This document shows positions 30,253 to 53,132 of a stretch of DNA of 64,000 nucleotides, in pieces (position 1 is the first letter of the stretch; every line of letters starts with the position of its first letter). The notes below the pieces were generated by a model. That model was not told where the DNA came from and did not search any database. It saw nothing but the letters and a program-made list of their open reading frames with translations. Position numbers and translations under genes: made by a program. This DNA is from Verrucomicrobiota bacterium (GTDB taxonomy: Bacteria; Verrucomicrobiota; Verrucomicrobiia; Limisphaerales; J093): the NCBI GenBank assembly GCA_027493615.1, contig JAOSKK010000023.1:806001-870000 (forward strand), read 5' to 3'.

Positions 30253-30295
30253 GGTCGGGTGAACAAGGCTTCGGCCAAGGCGTTTCATGTCCGTG

Positions 30296-30368
30296 GTAGG
30301 CGCCGACGTGAGGAGGCGTTTGGGGGCCAACGATATCCCCACTTCGCCTCCTGACGTCGGCGCCTACG
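30296..30368. repeat. Family A inverted repeat, copy 4
   Basis: Arms 30296-30318 and 30345-30368 (GTAGGCGCCGACGTGAGG and complement), lying between tonB and the TPR gene of one operon. Short GTTTCAT text lies on both sides. Confidence 0.87.
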
Positions 30369-30386
30369 ATGGGTCGCGGTTTCATA

Positions 30387-31051: not shown

Positions 31052-31081
31052 GGCCGGTCGGGCAGGGCGCCAGGGGACACG

Positions 31082-31492
31082 TCAAGAACTGCCCGGCTCG
31101 GCTGCAATGCTCACATTCCTGGCCTTGCCGAGCTTGGCTTCATCCATGACGCGGATCAGCAATCCCGCACTCGCGTGCTTGTCCACCTGGATAATGACGG
31201 GCATCGGCTCGGTCTGGCACAAGCGGCTGACAACGGGACGGACGCCGCCGACGCCGATCTCCTTGCCACCATAGACGACCTCGCCCTTGGCAGTGAGGGC
31301 CAGCAGAATGCTGTTCTTCTCAAGCTGCGACGCGGTCATGGCCTGCGGTTTGTCCACCTCCGTGCCGGTTTCCTCCACAAACACCGTGGTGACGATGAAG
31401 AAGATGAGGAGGATGAAGACCATGTCGATCAACGGCGAGACGTTGATCTCCGTGAGTTCCTCCGCGTCCGCGATGGTGCGGCGATACCTCAT
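31082..31492 (-). CDS. exbD: ExbD/TolR biopolymer transport protein
   Basis: 136 residues, normal for ExbD. A single membrane span near the N-terminus (INVSPLIDMVFILLIFFIVT) includes the proton-relevant Asp in PLIDMVF. The periplasmic domain (VVYGGKEIGVGGVRPVV, VIIQVDKHASAGLLIRVMDE) is typical. The start ATG overlaps the stop of the exbB-like gene by 4 bases, so the two are made together. Works with ExbB to harvest the proton gradient for TonB. Confidence 0.93.
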   Translation of the reverse strand: MRYRRTIADAEELTEINVSPLIDMVFILLIFFIVTTVFVEETGTEVDKPQAMTASQLEKNSILLALTAKGEVVYGGKEIGVGGVRPVVSRLCQTEPMPVIIQVDKHASAGLLIRVMDEAKLGKARNVSIAAEPGSS

Positions 31493-32148
31493 GCGGGCAA
31501 CGGCGCGGGCATCAGACCGCGGACCGGCTCAAGGGTCGGGGCCTCGGCCGCCGGTGTCGCGGGCGGCAAGGTCCGGCGATGATGCTGGATCGTGTAGCTC
31601 TCGAGCCGCGCCAGAAAGGCCTCGAACTCCTGCCGCTGCCGGCGAATCAGGTGGGCCAGCACCAGACCGGGAAGCGCGATGCACAACCCGACCTCCGGCG
31701 GGAACAGCGCCTGGGAAATCCCGTCAGCCATCGCCTCGGTGACCCGGCCCCCGCCCCCGGCCGCCAGAGCCTGGAAGGTGACCAGCATCCCGAAAACCGT
31801 GCCAAGCAGACCCACCAGCGGGGCCGCGGCCACCAGCGTGCCCAGCGTCGAGAGACGCCGGTCTATCGGGGGCAACTGGGCGGCGGTCACCTCGGCGAAG
31901 CGCAGGTTGATCTCCTCGCTCGACTGGCCCTCTCGCGCGTAGCGGATCAGCTCGCCAACTTCGCCTTGACCCGCCTCGGGACGATGCACCCAGCCTTGCC
32001 ACTCGGCGTCCGTCAGCCGGCGGAATTGGCGGCGTTGCAGGTCCAGCCAGAGGCGCAGACCCACCCCAAACACCAGCAGCGACACAACGAGCAGCGGCCA
32101 CATGACCCAGCCGCCCGCGGTCCAAATGTCCAGAATGCGCGTCATCAT
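31489..32148 (-). CDS. exbB: MotA/TolQ/ExbB proton channel family protein
   Basis: 219 residues with three membrane spans (WVMWPLLVVSLLVFGVGL; LVAAAPLVGLLGTVFGMLV; ALFPPEVGLCIALPGLVLAH). The block APLVGLLGTVFGMLVTFQAL is the ExbB signature. It is the stator ring partner of ExbD. Overlaps the exbD gene downstream and the longer ExbB-like gene upstream by 4 bases each. The C-terminal tail after the last helix is Pro/Ala-rich. Confidence 0.92.
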   Translation of the reverse strand: MMTRILDIWTAGGWVMWPLLVVSLLVFGVGLRLWLDLQRRQFRRLTDAEWQGWVHRPEAGQGEVGELIRYAREGQSSEEINLRFAEVTAAQLPPIDRRLSTLGTLVAAAPLVGLLGTVFGMLVTFQALAAGGGGRVTEAMADGISQALFPPEVGLCIALPGLVLAHLIRRQRQEFEAFLARLESYTIQHHRRTLPPATPAAEAPTLEPVRGLMPAPLPA

Positions 32149-33562
32149 GATCTTTCGAGGGTGAGGGTTTCCGCTGTGGGACTCGGCAGGCCGTTGATGA
32201 AGCCGACGGTGATCTGTTCCATGCTGCCCAGGACCCCTTTCACCTTGCGGGAAATCACGGCGTGGAGAAGCAGCGAGGGAATGGCCACGACCAGCCCGAA
32301 CTCGGTGGTGATGAGCGCCTCGGAGATCCCCCCGCCAGCGTCTTCGGATCCCCCGTGCCGAACACCGTGATCATGTTGAACGTGTTGATCATGCCGGTCA
32401 CGGTGCCCAACAACCCGAGCAACGGGGCCGCCGCCGCGGCCAGCGCCAGAAAGGGCACCCAGCGTTCGAGCCGGGGCCGGGTGGCCAGCATCTTCTCGTA
32501 CATGACCTCCTCGATGTACTCCTTGCGCTCGTCTGCATGCTGCACGGCCATCCCGAGCATCTCGCCCACCGGACCCGCCAGGGATCGGGCATGCCGGGCA
32601 GCCTTCTCGCGATGACCGGCGATCAGCGACGTCAGGATGAGATGGAGGTCCGCCGGGGTGGCCACCCGGACGCGACCCACCTGAAGCCACTTGGCCGTGA
32701 AGATGCCCAGTGCCACCACACCCAGCAGGAGGATCGGGACCATCACGGGCCCTCCCTTCGCGACGTGCTCGGCCAGGCTGTCCCGGGTGGCGCGAAGCCG
32801 CACCGCGTTGCCCAGGGTGGGGTCCAGCGGCAGCGAGCCGCGGGATGCGGCAGCGAATTCGCGAAGCCCCGCTGTGAATTCGGCGGGGATCGGCACCACG
32901 TTGGGTTCGGCCGAGTTGAGCCGTTCCTCGACCACGCCGACGGCGCGACTCTCGGCGCTGCTGAAATAGCCGGCCGGACCCACCAACACGAACCGGCCGC
33001 GTTCGAGGTGCCCGTCGCTGGTAAGGGCCTGCCCTTCGAAAGCATCGCCGCCCACGCTTCGTTCGACCCGTTCGAGCGCGGTCTCCAGGAAGCCCAATTG
33101 CGCGCCGAGCCGCTCGGCCGGCAACGCTTCAACCGCGTCCGTGGCCGCGCGGACGGCTGCCAGACGGGACTCGTATCGTGGGCGCTCGCTGACGTGGAGC
33201 CGGGTTTCGAAGGCCCGACGGTACTCGGTCAGAAAGGCCTCGAGAAACCGGACTTCGTTGCTGCGAGCATGGACCTCGGCCTTGAGCAGGTTGAACAGGA
33301 CCAGTTGGTTGCCCTCCTCGCGTTGCTGTTGCTGCCACGCCGCGCGGCGGGCCACCAACTGCTGCTCGAGATCGCTAACCTCCCGGGCGAGGGGGAGCCG
33401 TTCCGATTCGATCTGGGTGCGGAGCGTGGCGAGTTCGGCCAGCACGGCCTGGAGGTCCTGCCGGGCATCGGCCGCGAGGATGTCCGGTGTCGCGGCCGGC
33501 GAGCCCGCCAGGCCGGTCGCCGCCAGCGCCAGACCGAGGAGGCAGGAGAAGCGGCGCTGCAT
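32145..33562 (-). CDS. ExbB-family protein with long periplasmic coiled-coil domain, TtpC-like (one frameshift)
   Basis: About 472 residues. Signal peptide (MQRRFSCLLGLALAATGLAG), a coiled-coil-rich periplasmic part (residues 35-160, LATLRTQIESERLPLAREV and on), then a TolQ/ExbB channel domain (VPILLLGVVALGIFTAKW, AAAAAPLLGLLGTVTGMINT). This layout is that of TtpC, which in Vibrio TonB2 systems is required with ExbB2-ExbD2. The C run 32328-32333 is one base short; adding one restores KTLAGGISEALITTEFGLVV through to the stop. It follows the DUF3450 gene after 11 bases and overlaps exbB. Confidence 0.88.
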
Positions 33563-33573
33563 GGGAGAGTGGC

Positions 33574-34343
33574 TCACGGAAGTTCGACGGGGAGGGCGAC
33601 GAACGCGGCCGGGAGTTCGTTGCGGTACACGCGAATGGCACGGGCGACGGCGCTGGCCAACTCCGGACGCGGGGTCCAGTTCCAGCCCGTGGCGCCAGGA
33701 ACACCCACCCCGGCAAACGTGGCCGTCTTGTCCACGAACCACGCCTGCGCGAGGCCGGCGTACAACACGTCCACCGCCACCGCCTTGCCCTGGGGGTCGG
33801 GGCGGGTCTCTTCGGCGAGCGTGAGGGTGCCGTTGAACTTGTCGATTTCGCTCAGCAGCGTCAGGACCGCCTGCAGGCGCGCGGCCACCGTCACGTTGGT
33901 GGGGTGGGGCGTGGCGGGAAGCCGGTTGAGAAGCGGTTGGACCGTGGTGCGCAGGGCAGGGGGAAGACGGGTTCGAGGGCACGGATCCTCATCTCGACCT
34001 GGGCCAGTGGCCCGCGCACGCCGTCGAGTGCTGCGCGGAAAAGAGTGTCCTGCGCCTCGGCCGCGGCCCGCTCGCCCGCCATCGTCCGCTGGTTCGTCTC
34101 GAGTCGGGTCGCCTGCTCCTCGAGCCCCTGCAGTTCCCGCTGGAGGAGGGCGCGGGTTCGCTCGAGCAGGTCCTTGTCCCTCGCCCAGTCCACACGGGTC
34201 CGCGCGAGCAACTGGTGAGTCTGCACCCACTGCTCCAGCACCGTGCGCGTCGCGGTCACGGCCGAATCGCCTGCTCCCGCCGCCCCGGCGGACCAGGCAA
34301 GTCCAGCGCACGCCACCAGCGCCCACTGTCGCCAGCCGTCCAT
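33574..34343 (-). CDS. DUF3450 family periplasmic protein (one frameshift)
   Basis: About 256 residues. Signal peptide (WALVACAGLAWSAGAAGA), then a long coiled coil (LLERTRALLQRELQGLEEQA) and a C-terminal part with LLSEIDKFNGTLTLAEE, VDVLYAGLAQAWFVDKTATF and GWNWTPRPELASAVARAIRV. DUF3450 proteins are a standard member of TonB2/TtpC operons, as here, where this is the first gene. The frame breaks in the C-rich stretch near 33960. The exact role is unknown; a periplasmic scaffold is likely. Promoter expected in the 34344-34420 gap. Confidence 0.88.
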
Positions 34344-34567: not shown

Positions 34568-34756
34568 CAATGGGGTCAAACATTGACATTTGACAATTAT
34601 CGGGAATGCAGAATCCGGGCGCCCGGACCCAGGCCCGTCGGTGGCGGATCCACGCAATCGGTGTCAACGCGGCCGTCTCCGCCCTGCAGATCCGGCGGTG
34701 CGGGCCGCACCGCGCAAGCGTGGCCAAATGTCAAATGTCAATGTTTGACCCCATTG
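34568..34756. mobile_element. 189-bp MITE-like element with perfect 27-bp terminal inverted repeats
   Basis: The left end 34568-34594 (starts CAATGGGGTCAAACATTGAC) and right end 34730-34756 are exact reverse complements over 27 bases. The interior is GC-rich, has no gene and differs from the flanks. The right end supplies the last eight codons and the stop of the giant RHS gene. No clear target duplication is visible. No transposase is in the window, so it would be a non-autonomous element. An open minus frame (34443-34727) crosses its left end but resembles nothing I know. Confidence 0.75.
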
Positions 34757-37700
34757 CCGCTCAGAAGATCTGGGGGGCCGATGAGGGGGACGGAGATGAG
34801 CCGGTTGCCGACGATCTTGGCTTCCAGTCCGACGCGGAGCCCGATGCCGAGGCCACTGGTCGCGCCGGAGGCGGCGGAGCCACGGATCTTGAGGCTCATC
34901 TCGGCGACGGTGATGCCACAAACCTTGATGGGAGGCAGGGCCACGGCGCCGCCCACCTGTTGTTCGACCCTGCCGGTGATGAGGTTGTAGGAGGTGCGGC
35001 TCTCGACCGGACCGATGTTGATGGCGATGCCCACGGATGCGGTGACCGGGGGTCCGCCGCTGACTTGCAGACGCAGTTCGATCTTCTTCAGGACCGCCAT
35101 GCGGTCGGGGAGGATGGGTTTGAGATCCCAACCGCGGGCGATGCTGGGAAGGGAGCCGGTGAGCCGCGTGCCGTAGAACGCGTTGATGTGATCGGAGAGT
35201 TCGTAGGCAGCCAAGGCGAGTCCGCCGAGCATGTACACGGTGTTGGCCGTCTCGATCACACCCCTTGGCGCGGCAGAGTCCGTAGGCCGTGTTGAACGAG
35301 GCCTGGATGTTGCGAAGGATGCCGGAGATCGCCTGGACCATGCCGAGCTCGTTAAGGGAGAACTGCCCCGTCGGGTCAAAGCGGTTGACCGGGTCATTTT
35401 CGGCGTAGAGGTAGCGGTGAAGGGTGACCGGGCGCGGGCGCAAGCCCTCGGCACGGTCGCGGCCGTAGAAGCGGCCGTGGGCCACGCTGAGGTAGCGGTC
35501 GCGCAGGTAATCGAGGCCGAGGACGGCGTCGCGCTGCTGACCGGCGAACCGGTAGGGGTTCGGGGTGTTGCCGAGTTCGAGCCGGGTCCGGCCGTAGGGA
35601 TCGTAGTCGTAGCGGTCGGTGAGTTCGCCGGCGGGTCCGGTGAGGGCGCGGGTGCTGCCGAGGGCGTCGGCGTGGTAGTAGGAGGCGACGCCGCCGCGGG
35701 ACTGGGAGATCAACTGCTGGCCGTAGGTGTAGGCGGCGGTGCGGGTGGGGGCCTGGCCGTTGAGGGACTGCCATTCCTCGAGGACCTGGGCGAAGGTCTG
35801 GTTGCGGTCGACGAGGTAGGTGGTGGTGTTGGTCTGGCCGGCTTCGACGACGTGGGCGGCGACGCGGATGCCGTTCTCGTCGTATTCATAGCGGAGCGTG
35901 CGCGTCACACCGTGGGCGTCGGTGACGCGGGCGCCGACGAGGCGGTCGTCGGTGTTCCAGGCGTAGGTGGCCTGTTCGAGGGCGTTGCTGCGGGACAGGG
36001 TGTTGCCATTGGCGTCGTAGGTGAAGCGGGTGACGTCACCGCTGAGCACGTTGGTCTCGGCGAGGAGTTGGTCATTGGCGTCGTAGGCGTAGGTGCGGTG
36101 CTCTTCGAGGCCGAGGGAGGAGGCCAGGGACCAGGCGAGCCGGTTGCCGACCGGGTCGTAGGCGTAGGTGTTGGTCCGGTTGGAGCCGGCCGGGTCGTTG
36201 AAGACACTTTCGCGAATGAGGCGCTGGAGGGCGTCGTACTCGTAGTGGACGGTGCGGCCGTTGTGTTCGACGACGCCGATGCGGTGGCCGAGGGGGCCGA
36301 GGGTGTAATGGAAGCCGGCCACGGTTTCGGCGCCGTGGCGGTGTTCAACGGCGGTGAGCTGGTTGCGGAGGTTGAAGGTGTTCGAGCGTACGAGGCCGTT
36401 GGGCAGTTCCTGGAGGAGGAGGTTCCCGGCGGCGTCGTAGTGGTGGCGGGTGATACCGCCGTCTGGATCCGTGACGGTGACGAGGCGGCCGACCGCGTCG
36501 TAGGCGTAGGCGGTGACGGAGGGGCCGGCAGCCTGGGGACCTTCGGTGACGATCTGGGTCCGGCGGCCGACGGGGTCGTAGGCGTAACGGATGGTCTGGC
36601 CGTCGGGGTTGATCTGACGGGTGAGGCGGTCACGGGCATCGTACTCGAAGCGGGTGAGGCCGCGGCTGTCACGGGCGCTTTGGAGGCGGCCCATGGGCGA
36701 GTAAGTGAACTGGACGGCGCTGCCGTCGGGGAACCGTTTGGCGCTGAGGCGCTCGTTCACGTCGTATTCGTAGCGGATGACCTGGCCGTTGTAGTTGGTG
36801 ACGGCGGTGAGCAGGCCGGCCGTGTAGCTCATCGTGAGGCGCTGGCCCAGGGGCAGGACGATGGAGGAACGCTCGCAGCAGGTCTCGGGCTCGAAGCGGG
36901 TTTCGTGGCCGTTGGCGTCGCGTTGGAGGGTGGGTTGACCGGCCTCGTTATAGGCGTAGACGGTGGACTGGCCGAGGGCGTCGATGACGCGGGTAAGCTG
37001 GCCGTTGGCGTCGTACTCGAATCGAGTGGTGGCGCCGGCTTCGTCGATGCTGGCGATGACACGGCCGAGGGCGTCGTACTCGGCGCGGCGGCTGGAGCCG
37101 TCGGGGAAGACGGTGCGGATGGGGCGCCCGACCTTGTTGTAGAGGTAGAGGGTGGTGCGGCCGAGGGGATCGGTTTCGGAGACGGGGCGTCCGGCGGGGT
37201 CGTACTCGAGGCGGGTGACGTGGCCGAGGGCGTTGGTGATGGCGACCTGGCGGCCGGCGGCGTCGTAGCCGTAGGACGTGCGTTGGCCCTGTTCATCGAT
37301 GACGGCGGTTTGCCGGCCTGCGGCGTCGTACTCGAAGCGGACGGTGGGGTGATTGCCGGAGGCGTCCGCGGGGTAAACGATGGCGGTACGGCGGCCGAGG
37401 GCATCGTACTCGTAATAGGTGGTGCGGTTCTCGCGGTCGGTTTCGGCGATGAGCCGGCTGGCGGCATCGTAGAGGGCGCGGCGGGTGGTGCCGTCGGGGT
37501 ACCGGGTTTCGGTGCGGTTGCCGAGGAGGTCGTAGGTGTACTCGGTGCGCTGGCCGCGGGCGTCGAGGGTGGCAACGATCTGGCCGAGGGGATCGTACTC
37601 GGTGTAGGTGGTGTTGCCGGCGGCGTCGGTGACGGCGACAGGCCGGTTGGCGGCGTCGTAGATGGTGGTGACGGTGTTGGTGCGCAGGGCGCCGGAGAGG

Positions 37701-40700
37701 AGGGTAACGACGGTGGACTCGCTGGTGCGGTTGCCGGCGGCGTCGTAGGTGAAGCGGGTGACGTGGCCGAGGGGATCGGTCTGGGCGACCAGATGGCCGG
37801 CGGCGTCGTATTCGAGGCGGGTGATGTGGCCGGCGGGGTCGGTGATGCTGGTGAGGTGGTTGGCGGCGTCGTAAGTGCGGCGGGTGACATGGCCTTCGGC
37901 GTCGGTGACGGCGGTGACGTTGCCGCGCTCGTCGTATTCGAACTGGGTCACCTGGCCGAGCGGGTCGGTGGTGGTGAGGACCTGGCCACGGGCGTCGTAA
38001 GTGAAGCGGGTGACCTGGCCGAGGGGGTCGGTGGACGAGAGGATGTTGCCGGCGCTGTTGTAGGTGAACTGGTTGGTCTGGCCGAGCGGATCGATCTCGG
38101 CGAGCGGGTTGTTCTGGGCGTCGTAGAGGGTGCGGGTGACGCCGCCGAGGGCATCGACCTTGGCGACGACATTGCCGCGTTCGTCGTAGGCGAGGACGGT
38201 GGGGTTACCGAGGCGGTCGTAGATGGTGTCGGTAGCGGCGCCAAGGTCATGCTGGATTTCGGTGCGGCGGCCCTGGGCGTCGACGGTGGCGACGAGGCGG
38301 CCCTGGGCGTCGTATTCCATGCGGGCGCCAGCGCCGCGCGGATCCTGGATTTCGGTGAGGTAATGCGGGAAGCGGCGGTGGCCGTAGACGTAGGTGGTGG
38401 TGGCGTAGACCGGCTGTTGGGGATCGCGGGCATCGGTCAGGACGCTGGCCTTGATGAGATGGCCGGCGGCGTCGTAAGCGTAGGTGACGGTGGCCGGGCC
38501 GGCGGGGTCGCCGGCGGCGTCGAGGTTCTCGGGGGTGTAGACAGCGGTGATGCGGCGCTGGGCATCGCGCTGGAAGACGATGGACTTGAGCCTGGCGCCC
38601 TGGGGGTCGTATTGGTCGATGCTCTTGAGGAGCGTGCCTTCGCGGACCAACTGGGTGCGTTCGCCGGCGGGGCCGGTGATGCGGCTGAGGTAAGGTTTGC
38701 CGTAGGCATCGACGTAGCTGCCGATGGCGGACTCGCTGGCGATGAAGTGGCTGCCTTCGTACTCGCGGTCGATGCGGTACTGGGTGCCATCCTGCAGGGT
38801 GAGGATGAAGCCGGGGAAGTCGAACCCGTCGAGGCCGGTCTCGATGGGCGCGGCTTCCCAGTACTGGAGGTTCCAGAGGGAGACGAGGTTGGGTGAGACG
38901 GTGGGCACGAGCGTGGCGTTGATGCCCGGAGGCGGAGTCCAGACGGCGCGGAGTCGGAACATGCCAGCGGGGACCATGGAGAAGCTGAAGGTGACGCGCC
39001 GGCCGGTGTCGGGCATGTCGAGGGTGATGTCGCGGCCGCCGCCGGTGCGGAGGCTGAAGAAATCGCCGAAGAGGTCCTGCACGCGGGCGCGCTGCTCATC
39101 GATGACGACGCCAAGGTCGGTGACGGAGTAAGTCCAGGAGTAGCCGAAGTCGCCAGCGGCCTGGTTGAGGGAGTCATAGGTGCGGACGATGCCAATGGCG
39201 ACGCCGCCCACGGGGACGACGGCATCCTGCTGGCTGAAGGTGAAGTGGCCGATCTTGAGGCCGGAGTTGAGAGTGAGGGGGCCGCCGCGTAAGCCGTGAG
39301 GTTGCCGCCGCGCACTTCGAGCTGGAGGGTGTACGAGCCGTTGCGCACGAGGGTGAGGTCGAGCGTGCCCAGGCTACCGCCGGCGGCGACACGACCTTGA
39401 TGCCAGCCCGCGGCGTTGACGGGGGTGGCGTGACATCGGCCACGCGGGCGCCGTCCGCATCAAACAAGGTGAGGCGGTAAGCGACGGGGTCGATGGCGTC
39501 CGGGTCATCGGCGGTGCCGTCGAGGCAAAGAAGCCGGTTTCGATGAGCGTGGTTTCGGTGTTGGAGAGGTTGGCGAAGGCGGCGACGGGCGGTTGATCGC
39601 TGCTGCGCACGGTGAAGCTGGCCGTGGCGAAACCGGACTTCCCGCCGGGGTCGGTGGCGAGGAAGGTGAGTCGTTCGGTTGTGAGGGTACCCGGCGGATA
39701 GGTGATGGTGGCGACGCGATTTTCGTCGATGGAGACGGAGAGTGCGGTGGCGCCCGAGACGGTCCAGGTGAGGGCGGCGTCGGGATCGGTCGGATCAAAG
39801 ACGTACGGATCGAGCGGGATTGCCGTGAAGGCGGCGGGGGCGATGACGGTCTGGTCGGGGATGGGTTGGACGACGGGGCCGTCGGTGGCGGCGTCAAAGA
39901 CGACGACGTTGAAGCTCTGGGTGGCGGTGGCGCCCTGGTTGTCGCTGGCGGTGAGCGTCACGGGATGGCTGCCGAACTGGGCGGCGGTCGGGGTCCAGGA
40001 GACGACACCGCTGGCGGCATTGAGACTGAGGCCTTGGGGGCCCTGAGTGAGGGCGAAAGTGACCGGGTCACGGTTCGGGTCCGTGGCGGTAAGGGTGTAG
40101 GTGTACGGAACCCCGGGGGAGGCCGTGAGAGCGGGGTGGAAGTGAAGACGGGCGGGAGGTTGGCGTAGGTGAGGACGGTGATGGACCAGCTTTGGGAGCG
40201 ACCGGCCCCGCGGGGTCTTCGACGATGGCCTGACGAAGAAGGTGCCGGTGGCGGTCGGGGTCCAGCGGAGGAGGCCCGTGTTGCGGTCGATGGTCATGCC
40301 GGCGGGGGCCTGGCCGAGGCGGTAGGTGAGCGGGTCGCCATCCGGGTCGGAGGCCTGGAGGGGTACTCGTAAAGGACGGTGGTCATCGCCTGGAAGGCGG
40401 GCGTGGAGGTGATGTCGGGTGGCCGGTTGGCGGTCGGGTCTTCGGCGAGGACCGTGGCGGTATCGGCGGCGCTGGGATGGACACCGTCATGGACGACGAG
40501 TTCGACGACGTATTCGCCCGGGGCATCGGTCTGGAGCCAGGCCTGTTCGGTGTCGGCGGCGTTGAGGCGGGCGCGGCTGCCCATGGGGAGCGAGCGGAGC
40601 GACCAGCGGTAGGAGAGGGGCTTGCCTTCGGGATCGCGGGAACCGCGGCCGTTGAAGACGGCGTAGTCGCCGAGCGCGACGCGTTGGTCCGGGCCGGCGT

Positions 40701-43700
40701 CGGCGAGGGGTGGCTCGTTGGCGGTGAGGTCGGCAGGGGCGCTGAAGCGGTTGTTGGTTTCGCTGATCTCGGTGTAGAGGCCCGTCCCGTCGCCCCGGTC
40801 GTCGGCGACGACGAAGATGGTGTGGGAGGCGATGGCAGGGGCGAGCCATTCGACGCGGAGGTCCTGGAAGGCGCCGGGGGCGAGGGTCTGGGTGGAGAGC
40901 GCCACACCGATCAAGGTGCCGCCGGCCTGCGGGTCACCTCGGTAGAAGGCGAGCGGCGCGCCGGGCGGCAACGTCACCCGGCCGGCATTGCCCAGGCGGG
41001 CCGTGAGGGCTGCCTGGTCGGGCAGGCCGGAGCGGTCCACCTGGAGGAAGGAAGCGGTGAGGTCGACGACCGGCGGCACGTTGGTCGGGAGGTTGAAGCC
41101 GGCACGGCGGAGGTTGTTATTCTCGTCGTATTCGGGCACGACGTTTTCGCTGTCCACGAAAGCGGAGAGGGGGGCGCCGGCGAAGAGGGCCTGGCCGGCG
41201 AGGCCCATTTCGATCCAGGCCACGAAGCCCTGACGCAGGCCGGCGGGGACCGTGCCGAAGGCCACGATGCGATCCAGTTCGGGGGCATAGGTGCCGTCGG
41301 CATCGACGTCGACGAGGACGGAGACGGTGAAGGGGACGGGGACTTCGTCGGCGCCGTTGTTGCGCAGTTCGACGCGGACGGTGCCGCCGAGGGCGAGGGT
41401 TTGCGGGTCGACCGTGACGTTAGTCATGACGATGGCGACGGGCTCGAGGTCGACCTCGGACCCGGCGGGGGTGGTGACGACCAGCGTGAAGGATTGTTCG
41501 GCGGCGTCGCCGCGAGCGTCGGTGACGCGGAGGACGACGGGGTGCGGTCCGACGTCGGCCTCCCCGGGGAGCCAGTCGAGGGTACCGGTGGCGGGGTCCA
41601 CGGCCATGGTGGTGGGACCCTGGGCGAGTTCGAAGCGGAGGGTGTCGCCGTTCCGGTCGGTGGCGACGGGCGTGTAGGAGTAGGGCTGGCCGGCGCGGAC
41701 GAGGAGGGGCGGCTGGCTGGTGAAGTCGGCGGGGGCGTTGCGAGTGGTGATGGTGGTGGTGCGGGTGGAGCGGCCGCCACGGGCATCGCTGACGGTGAGG
41801 GTGACGACGTTGGTGGCCACGTCACGGAAGACATGGGTGACGAGCGGGCCGGTGGTGCGGGTGCGATCGCCGAAGTCCCACTCGAAGGTGAGCGGGTCGT
41901 TTTCGGGATCGGTGGTGGCGGTGGCGTCGAACAGGACCTCGTCGAGCGCGAGCGGGGTGGTGTCGGAGACGGCCCAGGCGATGACGGGGGGAGGTTTGCA
42001 GGACCGACGGTGACGGTGAAGTCGAGGGTGGCCGCGCCGCCGCGGTTGTCAGCGACGATGAGCTGGGCGAGGAACGTGCCCTGGGCGGTGTAGGTATGGG
42101 TGACCTGGGGGCGGCGCCCGTACCTGTCTGGCCGTCGTCCCAGATCCACGTGAAGGTGAGCGGGTCGCCGTCGAGGTCGAAGGAGGCGGAGGCGTCGAGG
42201 GACAGGGCTTCGCCGAGGCGGACGGTGTAGGACGGGGCGCCGGCGAGGGCGATGGTGGGTGGGCGGTTGGGGCGGGAGACCTCGACGTTGGCGCGGGCAC
42301 GGGCGGTGCCGCCGTAGCCATCATTCACGAACAGGGAAGCGAGGTAGCGGCCGGGGGCGTTGTAGACGTGGATTGGGTTCGGGTTGGTGGAGGTGCTGCC
42401 GTCGCCGAAATTCCACAACACGCGCAACGGCTGGCCGTCGGGATCGCGCGTGCCGGCGGAGGAGAACTGGACGGGCTGGCCGGTGAGGCTGGCGTAAGGG
42501 CCGTTGGCGGCGGCGACGGGCGGGGCGTTCTGGGCGGGAAAGACGACGAGGTCGAAGCTGAGGACGTCGCGTCCGGCATCGTTGCGCACCTCGAGGGAGA
42601 CGGCCTGGGCGCCGAGCTGGTCCTGGGTGGGCGTGAAGCGGACGATGCCGGAGGCGGCCTCGACGGAGAAGTTGGCGGGCCCGGCGAGGAGGGCGAAGGT
42701 CATGGGGTCGTTCTCGGGATCGGCGGCCTGGAGGGCGAACTCGTAGAGCTCGCCGACGCGCGCGATGCGCGGGGGGTATCGAGGAAGGCGGGCGGGCGGT
42801 TGTCGGCGTCGCGCGGGCGGGAGACGGCGAGGCGGGCATCGGAGACGCCGAGGGGGCTGGGGCGGCTGTGAGCATAGACGACCAGGCGGTAGAAGTACTC
42901 GACGTTGAGCGTGACGTTGGTGTCGAGGAAGGTGGCGTAGCGGCTGTCGGTGCGGCCGATCTCGGTGAAGCCGCGGGTGGGGCTGGTGGTGCTGCGCAGG
43001 ACGGCGGCGTAATCGCCGACGGGGGTCCAAACGAGCTGGATCTTGTTTTCCTTGGCGCGGGTGCGGAGGTCGGCGACGACGCGTTCGTAGACGTAAGCGG
43101 TGGTGAAGTCATCGGCGGTGAGGTTGGTCAGGCCGAGCTGTGGGAAGACGAGGCGGTGGCGTCGGAGACGCGGAGGCCGAGGCGATGCTGGCCGGCGGTG
43201 GGGAAGCCGCCGGCGAGGACGGGTTGCGGGCCGGTGACGCCGTCGTCGAAGTCGAGCGGCATGACGAAGTCGACTTCCCAATCCCAGGCGGTGAGGTAGT
43301 CGCCGGCGCCTTCATCGACGTCGAAGGACCCCGAGCCGTCGAGGGGCAGGTCTTCGCCGACGGCGACGACGCATGGGCCGCCGGCATCGGCGGTGGGCGG
43401 AAGGGCGGATGGTGGTGCGGACCTCGACGGAGGCGATGTCGGTGAGGGTGGGGGTGCACGTTGTCGCGGACCTGGAGGGTGACGAGGTTGGTGCCGAGGG
43501 CGGGGTAACTGTTGGTGACGACGGGGCCGACGGCGTCGGGGCGCTCGAAGTCAAAGCCGTCGGCGGCGTTGAAGTCCCAGCGGTAATCGACGACCTGGTA
43601 GGCGGGGTGCTGGTGGTAGGAGGCGCGGGCGTCGAAGGTGACGGGGAACCCGACGGCGGAGGGGTTGGGGCGGAACTGGATGACGGCGACGGGGCCGCGT

Positions 43701-46700
43701 TGGAAGAGGGAGCTCGAGAGAGGAGGACGATGGAGTAGGCGGTGGAGAGGAAGGGTTCGTTGACCCAGGAATCCCGGGAAACCCAGGAACCGTCGGCGCG
43801 CTGCTGGTCGACGGTGAAGCGGGCGAGACCGACGGCGGGGTCGAGGAACCAGTCCCAGGTCTTGTCCTGCCAGGTGAGCTTCTCGACGGGCTGCGGGTGG
43901 GCAGTGCGGAGGGCCTTGGCGATGGCGTAGTGGGCGTAGAGGTTGTAGTTGTTGACGAGCGAGCTCCAGTTGCGGGCGAGGTAGCTCTCGCCGTGCTGCC
44001 AGAGGGCGTTGGTGGTGGAGAGGCCGGCGAAAGCCAGTTGGACGAGGGCGGAAGGGGTGGTTGCCTCGCCGTCGCCGGGCCCGGTGTAGCCATAGCCGGA
44101 ACCGCCCTTGGAGTACTGGACCCAAACGATGTTCCGGTCCTTGACCCAGGTGGGGATGACGCTGCCCCAGTACTTCTCAGCAGCAGTCAGGCCGATGGCA
44201 CCCCACTGGGCGGCGGAGTTGTCGGGGTGCTCGTTCCAACTGTAGCGCCAGCCGCCGCCGACGGTGGGATCGTCGTACTGGCCCCAGCAGTAGATATCGA
44301 CGAGGTCCTGCATGATGTCGCCGAGGGCGCGGCCACGGACGTTGGCGGGGCCGACGGGGGCAATGAGTTCGGGGCGGGTGCAGGCGACGAGTCCGTCCAT
44401 GAGCGGGCCGGTCTGGTAGATGGGCTGGCCATTGTTGGGTAGAGGCCGATGCCGTTCTGGTTGCCGTCGGGGTCGCCGTAGGGCTGGGGTCCGATGGCTT
44501 GGGTGATGAGGGTCCCGAGGAGGAAGTGGATGCCGCGCTGGACGGTTTCGACGTAGGGATCCTGGGCGCCGTCGTCGGCGTACTGGTGGCCGTTGATGCC
44601 GAAGGCCTGGACGGCGGTGGCGGTGAGGTTGACGGCGTGGCCCTTCGAGCTCCAGGAACCGACGCCGACCTGGGCATCGAGTTCGGAGCGGGACTGGTTC
44701 TTGTGGAGGAACCAGAGGCCTTCGTCGATCGCCACGTTCATCTCGGTGGTGATGGATTTCGGGCGGAGGACGAGGGGGTAGGTGTCGCCGAGGGTGACGC
44801 CATTGGTGAGGACGACGGTGAGCGTGGCGTAGAAGGGGGTGCCTTCGGCGCCGGCGTAGGCGTGGCGAGCTTCGAGGGCGTAGGCGGCGGCGGGGGTGGT
44901 GGCGGTGTTGGTGACGGTGCCGGACCCATCACCGAAGTCCCAGATGTAATCGAAGGGCAGCGGGAGGCCGCGGGCAACGGCCTTGAGGGTGACTTCCTTG
45001 CCGGAGAAGGTTTCGTGAGGCTGTTCGATGCCGTTAACGATGCGCCAGGGGACACAGGCGACCGCGTTGCCGGGGAGACGTCAATGACGAGCGAGGCGGA
45101 GGCGGCCTGGTTGGCGAAGTCGAGGACCGTGAGGGTATTGGTGTAGCGGCCGGGGGTGTTGTAGCGGTGGTTGACGGCGGGTCCGGCGCCGGGGGTGGTG
45201 CCATCGCCGAAGTCCCACGAGTAGCTGGCGATGCCATGGTCGTCGCTGGAGCGATAGGCGTCGAAGCTGAGGACCACGCCGGCCTGGGCGCTGGTGGGGC
45301 CGCTGATGACGGCTTGCGGGGGTTGGCCGACGACGGGCTGGATGGTGACCTGGGCGGTGTTGGTCTGCCACTCGTGATCCACCACCTCGAGGGTGACGGG
45401 GCCGCCGGGGAAGACGGGCGTGCGGACCGCCATGGCAGACACGAAGGTCCCGGTCACCACGAAGTCATCGAAGCCGAACGTGCCGCTGTGAACGTCGGCT
45501 CCGAAGCTGAAGGCGGTGTCGGTGCGCTGGTCGCTGGTGAAAACGAGTTCGAACGCCGCGCCGGTGCCGGAGGGGCGCACGTGGTAACGCGCGCCGGCGC
45601 CAGGCAGGGTTTCGATGCGGAAATCGTAGGACAGGCCCCGGGTATACTCGCCGATCTTGCCGCGATCGCTGCCGTACTCGTAAGCGCGGAGCTCGCCATT
45701 ATCGAAGTAGAGGGCGTAGGGGAAGGTGTTCTCGTGGCCGGAATTGATGTCGAGGTTCTTGGAGGCCCACCATGGCGCGAGCGGTGTCGGTGGGGGTGTC
45801 GATGCGGCCCTCGAGGGAGCCGCCGCGGAGGAGGCGGGTCGGAAGGAGAAGACGTAGTTCGCGCCCCAGTTGCCATTGCCGGTGACGGTCAGGCGATCGT
45901 CCTGAGTGACGCCGGCGGCGATCCACTGGTCGGCGTCGAGCGCGCGGCCGGCGAAGTCGAAGGCCCGTGGCGGGAAGAGCCAACGATAGGAAGTGATGCC
46001 GCGGTCATCGGTGGAGAGTTCGCCGCTGAAGGCGACGGGCTGGCGGCCTTCGGGGTTGAGCGGGGAGGCGGTGATGCGGGGGACGGGGCTTTCGCCGGGG
46101 ACAACGAGGACGCTGATGGAGGTGGTGGCGGTCTGATTACCGTGATCGGTCACCTTGAGGGTGAGGGGATAGGTGCCGGCGCGTTTGTATTGGTAGCTGA
46201 CCTCGACGCCGGTGGCGGTGCCGCCGTCGCCGAAGGTCCATTCGTAGCGGTAGATGCCGGTGTCATCGGTGGAGGCGCGTCCGTTCCAGAGGCCGTACCA
46301 GAGGCCGTTGGTGGCAACGAGGGCGGGGGAGGAGGCGGGGGCCGGTGATGGCGGGGACGGGGAGGTCGTTGGCTTGGATGGTGACCTCGTGGGTGGTGGC
46401 GTGGGTTTGCCCGGCGTGGTCGGTGACAGTGAGGGTTACGGTGTAGGTGCCGATGGCGCCGTAACGGGTGGTGACATCGCGGCCGGTGCCCGTCTTGCCG
46501 TCGCCGAACTGCCAGTCGTATTTCCAGATCCCCACGTCATCCGTGGAGTCGGCGGCGGAGAAGTTGACGGTCCACTGGCCGTCGCGGGCGGCGGTTTCGT
46601 CGACGAGGGCGGGACCGGTGATGCGGGCGACGGGCGGGGCGCCGGGGACGAAGGTGACGGTGGTGTGGTTGGTGGCGCGGAGGCGGGCAGCGTCTTCGAC

Positions 46701-48467
46701 GACGAGTTCGACGTCCCAGGGACCGACGTTGGTCCAACTGTGCGTGATGCCGGGGGTGGTGTTGGTGCCGCGGGTGCCGTCGCCGAAGCCCCATTCGTAG
46801 CGGACGATGCCGAAGTCGTCGGTAGAGGCGGCGGCGTCGAGGGTGGCGGTCCAGACGAGCGCCTGGGCGTTGGTTTCGCCGAACACGTAGGGGCCACCCG
46901 GATCAGCCACGGGCGGGTTGCCCTGGACGGTCACCCAGGTGCCGCGGGTGCTGTGCCGGGCCTGGGCGTCGGTGTGCCAGAGGCGGGTGACGAACCGGCC
47001 TTCACGCACAAACCTGTGCGTCAAGGTCCGGCCGAAATAGGTCAGGTCGGGCGTGAAGGTCCAGGCCAACGGGTTGTCCCCCGTGTCGCCGAACGTCCAG
47101 CGGAAGGTGTCGCCAGCCTGGGCGCCGGCGCCGACGGCGTTGAAGGTGACCTCACCGCGGAGAGGGACGACGGGCTCACGGGGGTGATGTCGACGGCGAC
47201 GCGCGGCGGAGGGGCGGGGTCGCGACGCCCAGCGACGCGCCCATGCCGGTGGTCAAAGTCACGCGGTTGGTGTCGAAGCCGCCGTCGGCCAGGCCGGGGA
47301 CGAAGTGGGCCGAGCGCCCGCCGTAGGTGGAGAGGACGATGTCGAGGTGGCCGTCATCGTCGAAATCGTAGGCATCGAACGCGGCGTAGGTATCCAGGTC
47401 CAGGGGGCGAGGGTGGCACCGAGGCTGACGTTGGTGAAGGTGCCGTCGCCGAGCCCCCGGAAGAAACTCACGTCCCCGCTCCCGCCCTCGTTGGCGATGA
47501 GGTCGAGATGCCCGTCTCCGTCGAAGTCGCCCGCCACGACGCCGTAGGGATCGGAGCCGGATCCCCGACCTGGGGGCCTTCGGTGAAGGTGCGGTCGCCG
47601 TTGGAGCGGAACCAGCGGAGGACGCCATCGGAATAGGTGGCACGGATGAGGTCGGTTCGGCCGTCTTCGTCGAAGTCGCCGGCGGTCATGCCGCGTCCGG
47701 CACCGGGCGAGAACCGGGTCGAAGTGACGGTGAAGGAACCGTCACCGGCACCCCAGTAGAGGAGGGTGACGTCGCTGTTGCCGTTGACGGCGACGTCAAG
47801 GGCGCCGTCGACGTCGAAGTCCCCCACGGCCATGTCCATGGTATAGCCGGCAACGCCGTTGGCCTGGGGCAGGGGTTGGGGATCGGCGAAGGTGCCGTCG
47901 ACCTGACCGCGGTAGAGGAAGGGGCGGAGGGTGTCCCCGGAGGGAAAGGCGGCGAAGACGTCGAGGAACCCATCGCGGTCGAAGTCGGCGATGGCGACGC
48001 CGCGCGTGGCGCCGCCGACATTGGCCAACGGGACCGCTTCGCCAAAGGTGCGGTTACCGAGGTAGGGGAAGACAAAGACGCGACCGTTGTCATCGCTGGC
48101 GGCGGCGAAGGTGGGGGCGGGCCCACCGGCGAGGCTGGCGGCGCGGAAGAACCGGACGGGGTCGAGGGCGGGCAGGGGGCCGACGGAGAGGAGTTTGACG
48201 CGGCCGGGGGCGGGCTCGGGCGAGGTGGTGAGGAGGGGCTGCCAGTTCACGAGGTTGGTGCTGGTCTGGATGACGAACACCCGCCGGTGGCACCGGGGGC
48301 GGGGCGAGCTGGAGTGTCACCCGGGGCAGAGGGGCGCCGGGATCCGGGGCGGCGAGCGCGATCTGGCGCAGGCCATCCGCGACCACGAGGTTGGGCAAGG
48401 CCATCCAGACGGCGAGGACCGAGGCGATCGTCCGGTGGACCAGGGAGACGGGCTTCGACTTGGACAT
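34738..48467 (-). CDS. Giant secreted RHS/YD-repeat protein with FG-GAP, PKD, toroid and CARDB domains (about 20 frameshifts)
   Basis: About 4,570 residues when joined. In order from the N-terminus: signal peptide (ASVLAVWMALPNLVVADG); FG-GAP/VCBS beta-propeller blades (VAIADFDRDGFLDVFAAFPS, TAGDFDEDGRTDLIRATYSD; 48.2-47.2 kb); a row of PKD/Ig domains (RYEWGFGDGTRGTN, YDWQFGDGKTGTG, SYSWDFGDGTTPG); an alpha/alpha toroid (44.75-43.75 kb; DEGLWFLHKNQ, WLSS-like helices); more PKD and cadherin-like domains; CARDB (DLEPVAIVMTNVTVDPQTLA); then an uninterrupted 4.5-kb RHS shell (39.2-34.7 kb) with about 45 YD repeats such as TRFTYDARGQVLTTTDPLGQ. The RHS core end is YYHADALGSTRALTG to NDPVNRFDPTGQFS, followed by a variable tail of about 190 residues. 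Domain text continues over every frame break, so I read one gene. RHS shells usually encase a C-terminal toxin or ligand; the tail here is not one I recognise. Confidence 0.75.
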
Positions 48468-48512: not shown

Positions 48513-49641
48513 CTAGCGGCCGGGTTCAGGAGCGGTGAGGCGGGTGCCCCAGAGGCTCCAAACGGTCGGCGGTGGCGCGAGACGGCCGGCGCTGTAGATC
48601 TCGATGTTGTCGAGCGTGATTTCGCGGCCGGGAAGCAGGGCGTTGCCGGCGCCGAGTTGGGCGGCCACAGCCTCGGTGAGGTCGAGGTAAGGCGTGCCGT
48701 TGTCGAGGCGACCGCTCGGGCGGACGTAATAGAGGTTTGCCGAGCTTTGCAGGCCGAGCTGGAAAGGCGGGCCGACGGGCCCCTGGCTGGCGGGCAGGTT
48801 CTGGAGCCGCAAACGGCCGAGGAGGCTGCCCGCGGGCTGGTTCAGGCGCCACTCGAAGCGCAGGCTGACCAGGCTGGTGAGGTCGGTGACGAGTTGCTGG
48901 CGCCGGTCGGCCTCGCCCGAGAACGTGACGCGGGTGGTCGGGCCCGAGGTGGGGTCGGTGTGAACCAGCGCGAAGGGGCCGAGGCGCGTGTCGTCCTCGG
49001 AGATCAGGGCACGGACAGTGACGTGCTCGCCAGGCTTGAGAGTGCCGAGGGAGAAACCGAGGGCGAGGGCGATGTCTTCGGCCTGGCCTTCGGGGATGGC
49101 GCTGCGGTTGGTGAGGCGGGCTTCGAGGAGGTTCTGGTAGAGGGTACCACCGGCGAAGCCGGGTTCGTCGATCTGCCAGAACTCGGGGGCGGCATCGCCG
49201 GGGCCGACGCCCGGGGTACCGACGGCCTGGGCCTGTTCATTGAAGAAGGTGTTCTGGGCTTCGGCGATCTCGACATCCAGGAGCACGTAGAGGCGCAGGT
49301 CGTTGACGGCGTCGGTGCCGGTATTCGTAAACGTGTAGCGCAGCACCAGGTCCGAGGTGTCCGCCGAGAGTTCGGGGCAAAGGCGAGATTCAGGCCGGCC
49401 GGGAGGGCATGGCGGGAGAGGCGGGCGGTGAGGCCGGGTTCATCGCCGTTGAGGTCCACACCCGCCACGTGGACGAAGGCGTCGAGTTCGAAGACGCTGC
49501 CGGCGGGGCCGATGCGAAAGACTGGCCGTTGCGCGAGCCGCCCTGGCCCTGGGCGCCGAACGGGGTGAATTCGATGGCGGGGAGGGAGCCGTTGGCGAGG
49601 GCCATGCCCAGGGCGGTGAGAAGCAGCGTGGTGGGCTTCAT
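48513..49641 (-). CDS. Secreted protein of unknown function upstream of the giant RHS gene (two frameshifts)
   Basis: About 376 residues. Signal peptide MKPTTLLLTALGMALANG. A beta-rich body contains VLRYTFTNTGTDAVNDLRL-like text, which suggests a DUF11/CARDB-like adhesion fold (LRYTFTNTGTDAVNDLRLYV), then LKPGEHVTVRALISEDDTRL. The frame changes near 49500 and 49375. Its stop lies 45 bases before the giant gene start, so they probably share a transcript. No family was recognised with certainty. Confidence 0.65.
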
Positions 49642-49678
49642 AGCGGGGGAGGGTTTGCGCGAGCTGAGGGGCCAGGGT

Positions 49679-50886
49679 TCAGAAAGTCTTTCGCAAGGCG
49701 AGGCCGACGGTCCAACCGCTGTTGTCGAGCGTGACTTCGTTCGGGCCGAGGTCGAACTGGATGGGGTCGACCACCCAGTCGTAACCGCCCAGGGCACCGA
49801 GGAAGAAGCCGGCGCCGAGGTCGGCCTCGATCCCGGCGGCCAGACCGCAAGTAAAAACGGTTTCGGTTCCGCTGGCGCGGTCGGTCCACGAGCCCAGGGT
49901 GCGCGTGGCGCCGCTGGTGGTGCGCTCCAGGAACACCTCGGTCCGCTCGGCTTCGACGTCGACGATGCCCAGGCCGACCTTGGGGGCCAGATAGGCGTGC
50001 AGGCGCTGGCTGAGCTGATAGTTCAGGCGCGGGCTGAGGGCGAGTTCGTAGTAGGCTTCCTCAAAGCGGAAGTCGACCTGGCTGGTGGCGCGGGCGAAGA
50101 CGTCGAGTTGGGCGAGGCGCTCGACCGGGACGTTGGGGATGACCGGGTAGCCGCCGATCCACGCCGACGGCGCACCGGCGGGTCCGTCGTAGGTGCCGGT
50201 GTAACCGCCGGGGCGGTGCGCGGGGGGCGAAGCCGTGGTCGGGATGCACCGCGCCGGCGACATCGAAGCGGTCGGTCAGGTCGAGGCGGCCGATGTCCTC
50301 GGCGTAGGCGGTGGAGCTGAGGGTGGCGTCGAGGCCCCAGACCCCCTGGAAGGCCACGCCCAGATCGAAGCTCCAGCGGCCGCTGCGATGCAGGGTGCGG
50401 CCGGCCTGGACCGTCACGCCGAACCCGTCCAGATCTCCGTGTCCGCCAGCCGCGCCGTCCAGCGCGGGGACGGCGGCACGTTCGTAACTCCGTCGGAAGG
50501 AGAGCAGGCCGGCGGGGGCGTCGTACTGCTCCGCGCGGTCATAGGCCCAGTTCCAGGTGAGGCCAGGTCCCCCGACAGCCTCGGGGTTGGCGGTGCCGGG
50601 ATCGAGCTTGACGTAGCCGTCGTCGTAGGTGCGATCGGCGTACGTCTCGCTGTCGGCAGGGGGCACCGGCGGGGCGGCATGGAGCCCTTGGGCTTGGGTG
50701 TAGGAACTGCCGGAAACGCGGGCCGCCATGCCGGTGCGGTAAACCGGGCCGGCCTGAAACCACCAGTCGGCGGCTTGGACGGCGCAGCGCCGGGAGCACG
50801 CTCAGGGTGACGAGAGTGCACACGCGGGTCGGGTGCAGGCTGGAAGCCTGCACCACAACGCTCCGGGAAGGGATTCGGGTCGTCAT
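49679..50886 (-). CDS. Outer-membrane beta-barrel protein (two frameshifts)
   Basis: About 400 residues. A leader (CTLVTLSVLPAL) is followed, after a frame change near 50790, by AADWWFQAGPVYRTGMAARV. Alternating amphipathic strands run to the end (WSFDLGVAFQGVWGLDATLS, YYELALSPRLNYQLSQRLHA, GFFLGALGGYDWVVDPIQFD), and the last residues WTVGLALRKTF carry the terminal Phe of barrel proteins. A second frame change lies near 50225. The stop is 37 bases before the next gene. It could be the export or anchor pore for the secreted proteins encoded downstream, but that is inference. A small GTGCAGGC/GCCTGCAC hairpin lies at its 5' end. Confidence 0.7.
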
Positions 50887-51135: not shown

Positions 51136-52329
51136 TCAGAGGCCGCGCCAGAGCATCTCGAGGGAGAGCACGGCGTAGGCGGTGACGAGGTTGGGGTCCT
51201 TTTCCCACCAGCGGTTGTTTTCGTTGGCCCACGAGCCGTCGCGCTGCTGGAGGTTCAACAACCGGAGGGCGACCTCGCGTCGCCAGTCGATGCGGCGGCC
51301 ATCGGGAAGGTTGAGGTGATCGACGCCGGCGGCGTTGAGGGCCTTGGTGAGGAGGTGGAGGTAATAGTACAGGCCTTCCTGACCGAGGCCGGGGTTCTCG
51401 TCGAGGGTGTAGTGGGTCTGGAGCCAGTCGAGGACGGCGACGACGCGCGGGTCCTCCGGGCCGAGCTGGGCGTACAGGTAACTGAGGAGACCGGCGTAGC
51501 TGATGCTGCCGTAGGAACGGAGAGAAACCTTGCCAGTGACGGCGTTGGTGACGCCGCCCGCCATGCTATGACCAGGGAAATAGACGAACCCGCCACGATC
51601 CTTGGGGTCGTCCGAGACCCAGGGTTGGGCGTTGTGGCTGGGAAGGTTCTGGCAGCTCTGGATGAAGTGGATGGCGGCCGCCCAGTTGAGATCGGGCGCT
51701 GGGGGGCCGTCACGGTCGGTGACCAGATGGCGGGTGAAGCGGAGGGCCTCAAGGGCGGTGAGGGTGTTGTTGAGATCGGCGTGGCGGTACTTGTCGCCAT
51801 AGCCGACGCCCCCATCGAGGGGGGTGTCGAGCTTGCCAGGTTCGCCGAAGTCATTTTGGGAACGGACGAGGTATTCGCGGGCGCGGCGGAGGACGGTGTC
51901 GTGGGCGGGATCGCCGGCGAGGGCGAGGGCGGTGGTGGTGATCGCGGTGTTGTAGTTGATGAGAGTTCCGCGGTGGATGCTGCCGTCGGGTTGGACGGAC
52001 GCGAGGAGGTAGGCGTAGGCGCGGGTGAGGACAGCGGGGGCTTGGGAGCGGGTGCGTTCCCGGGGATCGCCAAGGAGGGCAGAGACGGCGAGTCCGGTCA
52101 TGGCGGGGTGGTCGGGGGTGGACCACCAGCCTTCCGGATGCTGGTGTTCCCGAAGCCAGGCCAGGCCGCGGTCGATGCCGGCCTGGATTTCCTGTCGCAG
52201 TGAATGGTCACCGGAGGAGGGTGCGGGGTCGCCGGCGAGGTCGCGGCTCAGGGCCGTCGCGGCGTGCGAGCGGGCGGGGCTGCCGAGAAGTCCGAGGGCG
52301 AGGAAGACGAGGAAGAAGCGGCATTTCAT
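51136..52329 (-). CDS. Secreted alpha/alpha toroid protein (prenyltransferase/squalene oxidase repeats)
   Basis: 397 residues. Signal peptide MKCRFFLVFLALGLLGSPA. The body has toroid repeats: GLAWLREHQHPEGWWSTPDH, MTGLAVSALLGD, AYAYLLASVQPDGSIHRG, YNTAITTTALALAGD, GVGYGDKYRHADLNNTLTAL, GSISYAGLLSYLYAQLG, NLQQRDGSWANENNRWWEKD. These are the QW-like repeats of squalene cyclases, but the DxDD catalytic motif of cyclases is not seen, so it may be a binding protein. Such secreted forms are frequent in Planctomycetota and Verrucomicrobiota. The ATG overlaps the end of the YdjY gene (ATGA). A toroid also occurs inside the giant RHS protein. Confidence 0.85.
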   Translation of the reverse strand: MKCRFFLVFLALGLLGSPARSHAATALSRDLAGDPAPSSGDHSLRQEIQAGIDRGLAWLREHQHPEGWWSTPDHPAMTGLAVSALLGDPRERTRSQAPAVLTRAYAYLLASVQPDGSIHRGTLINYNTAITTTALALAGDPAHDTVLRRAREYLVRSQNDFGEPGKLDTPLDGGVGYGDKYRHADLNNTLTALEALRFTRHLVTDRDGPPAPDLNWAAAIHFIQSCQNLPSHNAQPWVSDDPKDRGGFVYFPGHSMAGGVTNAVTGKVSLRSYGSISYAGLLSYLYAQLGPEDPRVVAVLDWLQTHYTLDENPGLGQEGLYYYLHLLTKALNAAGVDHLNLPDGRRIDWRREVALRLLNLQQRDGSWANENNRWWEKDPNLVTAYAVLSLEMLWRGL

Positions 52330-53132
52330 GGAGCGGGCGAAGGGGGTGACAACAGCCGGGGCGAGAGTGGGTGCGGCGGTGCGGGTGCTGGCGTCGGGCG
52401 ACGCGGTGGGTGTGGCCAGACGAAGGCGGACCTCGATCGGCGTGCCGGCGGGCGGGAGGACCGCGGGGTTGACGAAGTGCAGGTCGTCATTACCGCGGCC
52501 GGGCCGGGGGTTGTTGATGAGCGCGCTGGGATCGATCTGGAGCGCGACGATGGAACCTTCGCTCTGGGCGACGAAGACACCTCGGGAGAGGTAGGAACCG
52601 TTGTAGGTCCAGGGTCCGCGCGGAAGCATCTGCCACTGGTTGGTGGTGACGACGAGATCTTCGAGGGGGCGTTGGACCGGACCGTCGGGGGTGGACCAGA
52701 GCACCTGGATCTGCACAGGGTCACCGGGTGGAGGGGTGGCGAGGTCGGCGGGGAACACGGGGGTGCAGGGGGCTGGGCGCCCAGCAGGAGCATCCCCACG
52801 TGGATGTGGTGCGGTTCGACCTCGGTTCGCAAGACACTCTCATGGGTCTTGCCGGTGGTGGTGACGACGACGTACTCGACGACGCCGGTGCGTTGGTTGA
52901 TGGAGGCGGGGAAGGACAGCCAGCGTTCCTGGGCGTTCACGCGCACGAGCCCGAGGGGGAGGTTGGTGACGGTGACGGCGACGGGGTTGGCGGGGAGCGC
53001 GGATTCAGGACCGGCGGCGATCTGGCTGGCAGGAGACCCGAGGGCCAAGGCGAGGGCGAGTGAACGTGTCGCGCGAACCGCCGTCTCCCGGGAGGATGCC
53101 TCCGTACGTTCCGCGAGTAGGTTGCGTGCCAT
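52326..53132 (-). CDS. YdjY-domain secreted protein (offsetting frameshifts)
   Basis: 268 residues. Signal segment RSLALALALGSPASQIAAG. The YdjY domain is clear at about residues 60-120: LVRVNAQERWLSFPASINQR, GVVEYVVVTTTGKTHES, and VEPHHIHVGMLLLGA. After a frame change near 52760 the text continues in another frame (PVQIQVLWSTPDGPVQRPLE, RPGRGNDDLHFVNPAVLPPA); a second shift near 52400 would return to the frame that ends in TGA at 52326, overlapping the toroid start. YdjY domains have no known function. It is the first gene of the leftward row leading to the giant RHS gene. Confidence 0.75.
   Translation of the reverse strand: MARNLLAERTEASSRETAVRATRSLALALALGSPASQIAAGPESALPANPVAVTVTNLPLGLVRVNAQERWLSFPASINQRTGVVEYVVVTTTGKTHESVLRTEVEPHHIHVGMLLLGAQPPAPPCSPPTSPPLHPVTLCRSRCSGPPPTVRSNAPSKISSSPPTSGRCFRADPGPTTVPTSPEVSSSPRAKVPSSRSRSIPARSSTTPGPAAVMTTCTSSTPRSSRPPARRSRSAFVWPHPPRRPTPAPAPPHPLSPRLLSPPSPAP

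Follow-up and report, generated by a model that had tools for sequence, protein, structure and literature searches.

A conserved family of giant RHS exoproteins with a toroid-bearing stalk and variable tails in the Limisphaerales, with a probable role in bacterial competition

Layout of the locus

The window analysed here is a stretch of 64,000 nucleotides from a Verrucomicrobiota genome (order Limisphaerales; assembly GCA_027493615.1, contig JAOSKK010000023.1, positions 806,001 to 870,000 of the forward strand), and its main subject is a gene for a giant RHS exoprotein, which runs on the minus strand from an ATG at 48467 to a TGA at 34738-34740 (Table 1). Codon statistics indicated that its 13.7 kb are coding from end to end, while the open frame switches about 20 times, with zero stops within the pieces. 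The product is made up, in order, of a signal peptide, an FG-GAP propeller, a PKD array, an alpha/alpha toroid, a PKD/He_PIG/CARDB stretch, an RHS shell and a tail. Propeller, PKD arrays, toroid, CARDB and RHS shell had been proposed in the original prediction, made from the sequence alone, and Pfam placed FG-GAP, PKD_4/PKD, He_PIG, CARDB and 18 RHS repeats where they were expected. The RHS repeats (PF05593) were above cut-off and the RHS-associated core (TIGR03696, NCBIfam) scored 55.6 bits against a cut-off of 32.5, while TEN_YD-shell matches were found below cut-off only. Neither the embedded toroid nor the concanavalin/LamG-like module had a Pfam match of its own. The N-terminus of the window giant and its orthologues was judged hydrophobic and signal-like by eye and hydropathy. 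The giant is the last of five genes on the same strand, preceded, in this order, by genes for a YdjY-domain protein, a stand-alone toroid, a beta-barrel and a secreted partner.

Table 1. Features of the giant gene and of its gene cluster (window coordinates)
Feature	Position	Strand	Evidence or remark
Inverted pair of REP arms	34572..34752	.	the giant's final residues and stop fall in the right arm
Giant RHS exoprotein gene	34738..48467	-	~4,580 residues in total over the pieces; assembly breaks the frame
Variable C-terminal tail	34738..35365	-	~208 residues, orphan; stop codon within REP arm
RHS shell with Rhs-associated core, end PVNRFDPTG	35366..39290	-	18 RHS repeats, E 2.5e-158
PKD/K319L-like and He_PIG repeats, linker to RHS	39291..40720	-	Pfam; collinear with G047 2760-3240
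PKD, FN3-like, He_PIG and two CARDB modules	40720..43690	-	Pfam and alignment
Alpha/alpha toroid of squalene-cyclase/prenyltransferase type, without DXDD	43690..44741	-	61-64% identity to other giants
PKD domains, second block	44745..45300	-	Pfam PKD_4, E 1e-22
Concanavalin/LamG-like beta module (putative)	45300..45960	-	from sequence only; alignment with G047 residues ~1010-1190
PKD array, first block	45960..47179	-	Pfam PKD_4
FG-GAP beta-propeller	47200..48140	-	Pfam FG-GAP_3, E 1e-25; 50-52% identity to orthologues
N-terminal signal peptide (MSKSKPVSLVHRTIASVLAVWMALPNLVVADG...)	48370..48467	-	sequence; orthologues also begin with a hydrophobic segment
Secreted partner gene, frame-broken	48513..49800	-	directly upstream of giant; 41-57% identity to G126/G096/G112/G147 partners (main stretches)
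Outer-membrane beta-barrel gene, frame-broken	49679..50786	-	Pfam OMP_b-brl weak, below cut-off; 38-48% identity to cluster homologues
Stand-alone secreted toroid gene	51136..52413	-	weak SQHop_cyclase; 48-62% identity to cluster homologues
YdjY-domain gene, frame-broken	52414..53132	-	54-63% identity of pieces to G126 and G096 cluster homologues

Integrity and conservation of the giant gene

The numerous frame switches in the window would fit a set of distinct genes, or a pseudogene in decay, that continuity of the text merely makes look like one, but five other copies lie in a single unbroken frame (G047, 5,014 residues; G112, 5,028 and 3,909; G126, 3,894; G147, 4,949) and two further long copies are interrupted by contig ends only (G096, 4,635; G113, 3,689). 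Residues 61-4770 of the G047 protein are collinear with the window pieces; the stalk is 50-60% identical between the two, and the RHS shell ~42%. In addition, rpoB of the same genome (G000:C2 213781-217601) is likewise split, over two frames, which is evidence that the assembly carries indels, and a comparison with the nearest relative, a 1,179-residue open fragment in G009, gave a ratio of nonsynonymous to synonymous substitution rates (dN/dS) of 0.15 over 1,110 codons, i.e., purifying selection on the giant. Because of the frame-shifted rpoB, the unbroken relatives and this dN/dS, the breaks are most readily explained by assembly errors, and the window giant is regarded as functional, at minimum until recently; separate genes or a pseudogene were rejected on the same grounds, being refuted for the family and very improbable overall. 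The claim of one gene in the original prediction was therefore borne out, and the concern that a polished assembly might split it is answered by the unbroken G047 orthologue, the intact relative that had been called for.

The giants were found in 8 of ~320 genomes of the order, distributed over six families (G009 being counted by its fragment), with the unbroken orthologues in other families than that of the window, and stalk identity is mostly 50-75% across all copies. The family and its gene cluster are both conserved, so that the partnership of toroid and RHS repeats, which the original prediction had singled out as odd, is indeed unusual but not a one-off; the architecture is undescribed in the open-access literature searched. 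The two giants of G112 are alike in the signal region (87%) and the toroid (88%) and ~51-77% identical in between, while their shells differ (28%), as do their tails. Similarly, the N-terminus of G126 resembles that of G096 (propeller 81%) and its C-terminus that of G112b (71-83% until the RHS start). By these identities, the giant genes have the appearance of mosaics: modules are exchanged among them, shells and toroids included.

Tail exchange at the RHS core

The giants could be sorted into shell classes. G126 and G112b have an alternative stalk end and shell (83% mutual identity at the RHS start and 54% in the shell, against ~30% to the rest). Another shell is common to the window giant and G113 (54%). 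Within both pairs the tails are unrelated: the window giant and G113 are 58% identical up to the core DPTG (Z 25) but 20% beyond it (Z 1.3), and G126 and G112b go from 41% (Z 20) to Z 2.8 at the core. Both pairs point to a C-terminus that is exchanged exactly at the RHS core while the remainder is conserved. The PxxxxDPxG core and both core aspartates are present in the window giant.

One tail, type A, is common to G047, G147 and G112a. Directly behind each of these giants, at a distance of about 15-110 nt and in the same orientation, lies a gene for a protein of ~183 residues; the three proteins are homologous, and their two transmembrane helices are N-terminal. This two-helix protein turned up, by profile search, in 3 of 313 genomes, always at a type A tail site, and it is absent behind the other four giants (window, G113, G126 and G112b; 0/4). 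Judged from gene content, such strict linkage of a tail and its neighbour is a toxin-immunity signature, and the two-helix protein is probably the immunity protein of tail A. Tail A has hydrophobic segments near its start and its partner is located in the membrane, which suggests that the payload acts on membranes, like that of the RHS toxin Tse5. A hydrophobic hairpin was also seen within the RHS shell of the three type A giants (L024 ~5100-5500, with equivalents in L048 and L054) and is absent in the window.

Proposed function of the giants

We propose, with a probability of roughly 0.6, that the window giant is a secreted polymorphic RHS exoprotein of a new giant architecture, probably a protein of bacterial competition. 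Sec would export the giant, which would come to lie exposed at the outer membrane or beyond it with the aid of the barrel and the secreted partner of its cluster. The stalk would hold the producer cell and reach a neighbouring cell, with the toroid serving as a non-catalytic binding or structural module, the RHS shell would enclose the tail, and the tail would be delivered into the target. For type A, the payload would be membrane-active and the downstream two-helix protein would confer immunity.

Several results weigh against this proposal. The window tail has no Pfam or NCBIfam match and contains no known toxin domain, its AlphaFold model (single sequence) reached a predicted local distance difference test (pLDDT) score of 32 and was uninterpretable, and no recognisable immunity gene lies downstream of the window, G113, G126 and G112b giants. 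The case for immunity comes from three genomes; no Pfam match was found for tail A in G047 or G112a either, and other carriers of tail A were not found in the class sample, a weak test in which the positive genomes were not included. The autoproteolytic motif of RHS toxins is DPXG(X18)DPXG (PMC10684867); in the window giant the first site of the DPxG pair is degenerate (DRAEG), the spacing between the aspartates is 27 instead of 22 and the tail begins with Q rather than W/L/F, therefore its self-cleavage is uncertain. An AlphaFold model of the toroid (four-row alignment) was also uninterpretable (pLDDT 29).

The original prediction had called the tail unlike known toxin domains, which agrees with the lack of any family match and of a convincing relative in the 58 relatives or the class-wide set of 384 genomes (the best foreign matches in the latter, E 6e-4, were short and were treated as noise). 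We do not read the orphan tail as an argument against a toxin, because of the abrupt change at the RHS core and the dedicated membrane gene in three relatives. The REP (repetitive extragenic palindromic)-like 17-mer TGTCAATGTTTGACCCC has 81 exact copies in genome G000, mostly in inverted pairs, and an REP insertion may have truncated the window tail and removed any immunity gene. An open reading frame beginning MARKLRVEYPGGIYHVMNRGDRRE, similar to REP-associated transposases, was noticed ~1 kb downstream of the second G112 giant (L053, G112:C708, ~14420-14810).

Alternatively, the giant could be an adhesin or matrix protein whose stalk and shell bind polysaccharide or cells and whose tail is a freely varying, non-toxic membrane or surface anchor. 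This would fit the binding modules that make up most of the protein, the missing toxin family match and the window, G113, G126 and G112b tails without a neighbouring immunity gene, and lectin-like modules can be carried on the stalks of polymorphic RHS proteins (PMC3482391). However, such an anchor would not account for a tail boundary exactly at the RHS core or for the strict tie of tail type A to one downstream membrane gene, and we consider this alternative unlikely, albeit not negligible.

The closest known systems are the polymorphic RHS toxins (PMC3482391), with which the giants share a signal peptide, an adhesive or filamentous middle, an RHS array, a variable C-terminus and, in type A giants only, an adjacent immunity-like gene. 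Unlike these toxins, the giants have a conserved stalk of ~2,200-3,200 residues that includes a squalene-cyclase-type toroid, they end a conserved five-gene cluster, and their tails match no described toxin. The RHS shell with its PxxxxDPxG core is shared with the type VI secretion system effectors RhsA and the pore-forming Tse5 (PMC8765631, PMC10684867), and type A tails have hydrophobic segments, as would be expected for a membrane-active payload; the giant differs from these effectors by a Sec-type signal peptide and a long stalk in place of an N-terminus for loading onto the type VI spike, and by its degenerate protease motif. Compared by name only, TcB/TcC toxin subunits likewise combine a propeller and an RHS shell in one system, but the giant's propeller lies thousands of residues from the shell, and no TcA partner or SpvB domain was seen. 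Teneurins, too, are large extracellular multi-domain proteins with a propeller, a YD shell and a tail, whereas the giant is bacterial and has a variable tail and a stalk of toroid and PKD domains. The locus yields a defined family, its gene cluster and a pair of candidate genes for toxin and immunity, in a bacterial group whose contact-dependent competition has received little study, and it shows RHS shells atop a very long, conserved, toroid-bearing stalk.

The gene cluster

The same five genes accompany the giant in the same order in G126 and G096. The YdjY homologue of G126 matches NF040466 (E 2.4e-36, 125 bits against a cut-off of 50). The five genes are also complete in G147, where YdjY and toroid sit on the opposite side of the giant. 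Barrel, partner and giant are present on the contigs of G047 and of the first G112 locus, the second G112 contig begins at the secreted partner, and YdjY and toroid are absent from the giant-bearing contig of G047. By profile search, every one of the eight genomes with a giant has a full-length or nearly full-length secreted partner (divided over pieces in the frame-broken window genome). None of 45 others has it at full length, and only SdrD-like repeats or short distant stretches matched there.

The cluster could be pictured as a dedicated export and assembly system with the giant as its substrate, in which the beta-barrel would form the outer-membrane port and the secreted partner and stand-alone toroid would act as assembly factors. 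This would explain the conserved gene order, the strict co-occurrence of partner and giant and the homology of the stand-alone and embedded toroids, but the barrel belongs to no known transporter family, and YdjY and toroid lie across the giant in G147 and are missing on the G047 contig. We regard such a system as a tentative possibility, which is compatible with the competition proposal, the two not being mutually exclusive. A more far-reaching view, doubtful as a whole, would be a dedicated delivery system of the Verrucomicrobiae in which the five-gene cluster exports and displays RHS proteins of 4-5 thousand residues; their tails would be interchangeable and in most cases membrane-active, would each be paired with an immunity protein and would kill neighbours without a type VI secretion system. 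The linked barrel and partner genes make the crossing of the outer membrane by the giants testable.

In the window, the YdjY C-terminus and the stand-alone toroid share one open frame (51136-52758; fusion or indel), unlike in G126 and G096. Downstream of the giant (28741-34343) lie DUF3450, two MotA/TolQ/ExbB, ExbD/TonB-like and TPR genes, which are frame-broken too; these ExbB/ExbD/TPR genes were rejected as part of the system, since they are not beside the giant in G047 or G126.

Embedded and stand-alone toroids

The embedded toroid and the stand-alone toroid (52413-51136) aligned with a probability of 95% (hhalign, E 2e-8, 305 columns) and are, by this profile comparison, homologous over their length. 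The stand-alone toroid matched squalene-hopene cyclases at 60% over 128 columns and SQHop_cyclase weakly, below cut-off, and the embedded toroid gave a weak profile match to the cyclases directly. Similarity through the stand-alone profile would place the toroid in the squalene-cyclase/prenyltransferase superfamily, while a sequence search of the Protein Data Bank with the toroid profile returned only sub-threshold copalyl diphosphate synthases. With squalene-hopene cyclases the giant's toroid shares the toroid type, QW-type repeat motifs and a distant profile similarity via the stand-alone toroid, but it lacks DXDD: at the PDNSAxQW-type region of 13 embedded or PKD-linked toroids this motif is absent and an invariant DNS stands instead, whereas true cyclases of the order keep it. 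A separate genuine cyclase with DVDDT is encoded elsewhere in the window genome. Squalene cyclase activity was rejected for want of DXDD, and the likeliest reading is that the toroid may be a non-catalytic binding or structural module.

Further toroid proteins were noticed. Outside the order, a class-wide sample contained toroid proteins of 1.3-1.9 thousand residues. Two toroid proteins (frames of 1,492 and 1,289 residues; G512:C1 2397424-2402524) lie near each other in a single-contig genome from another family of the class. Shorter PKD-toroid proteins of 900-1,000 residues were noticed at L064 (G000:C1, 6368-9949) and at L057-L061; each adjoins a protein of ~240-290 residues, which in G073 distantly matches the secreted partner of the cluster.
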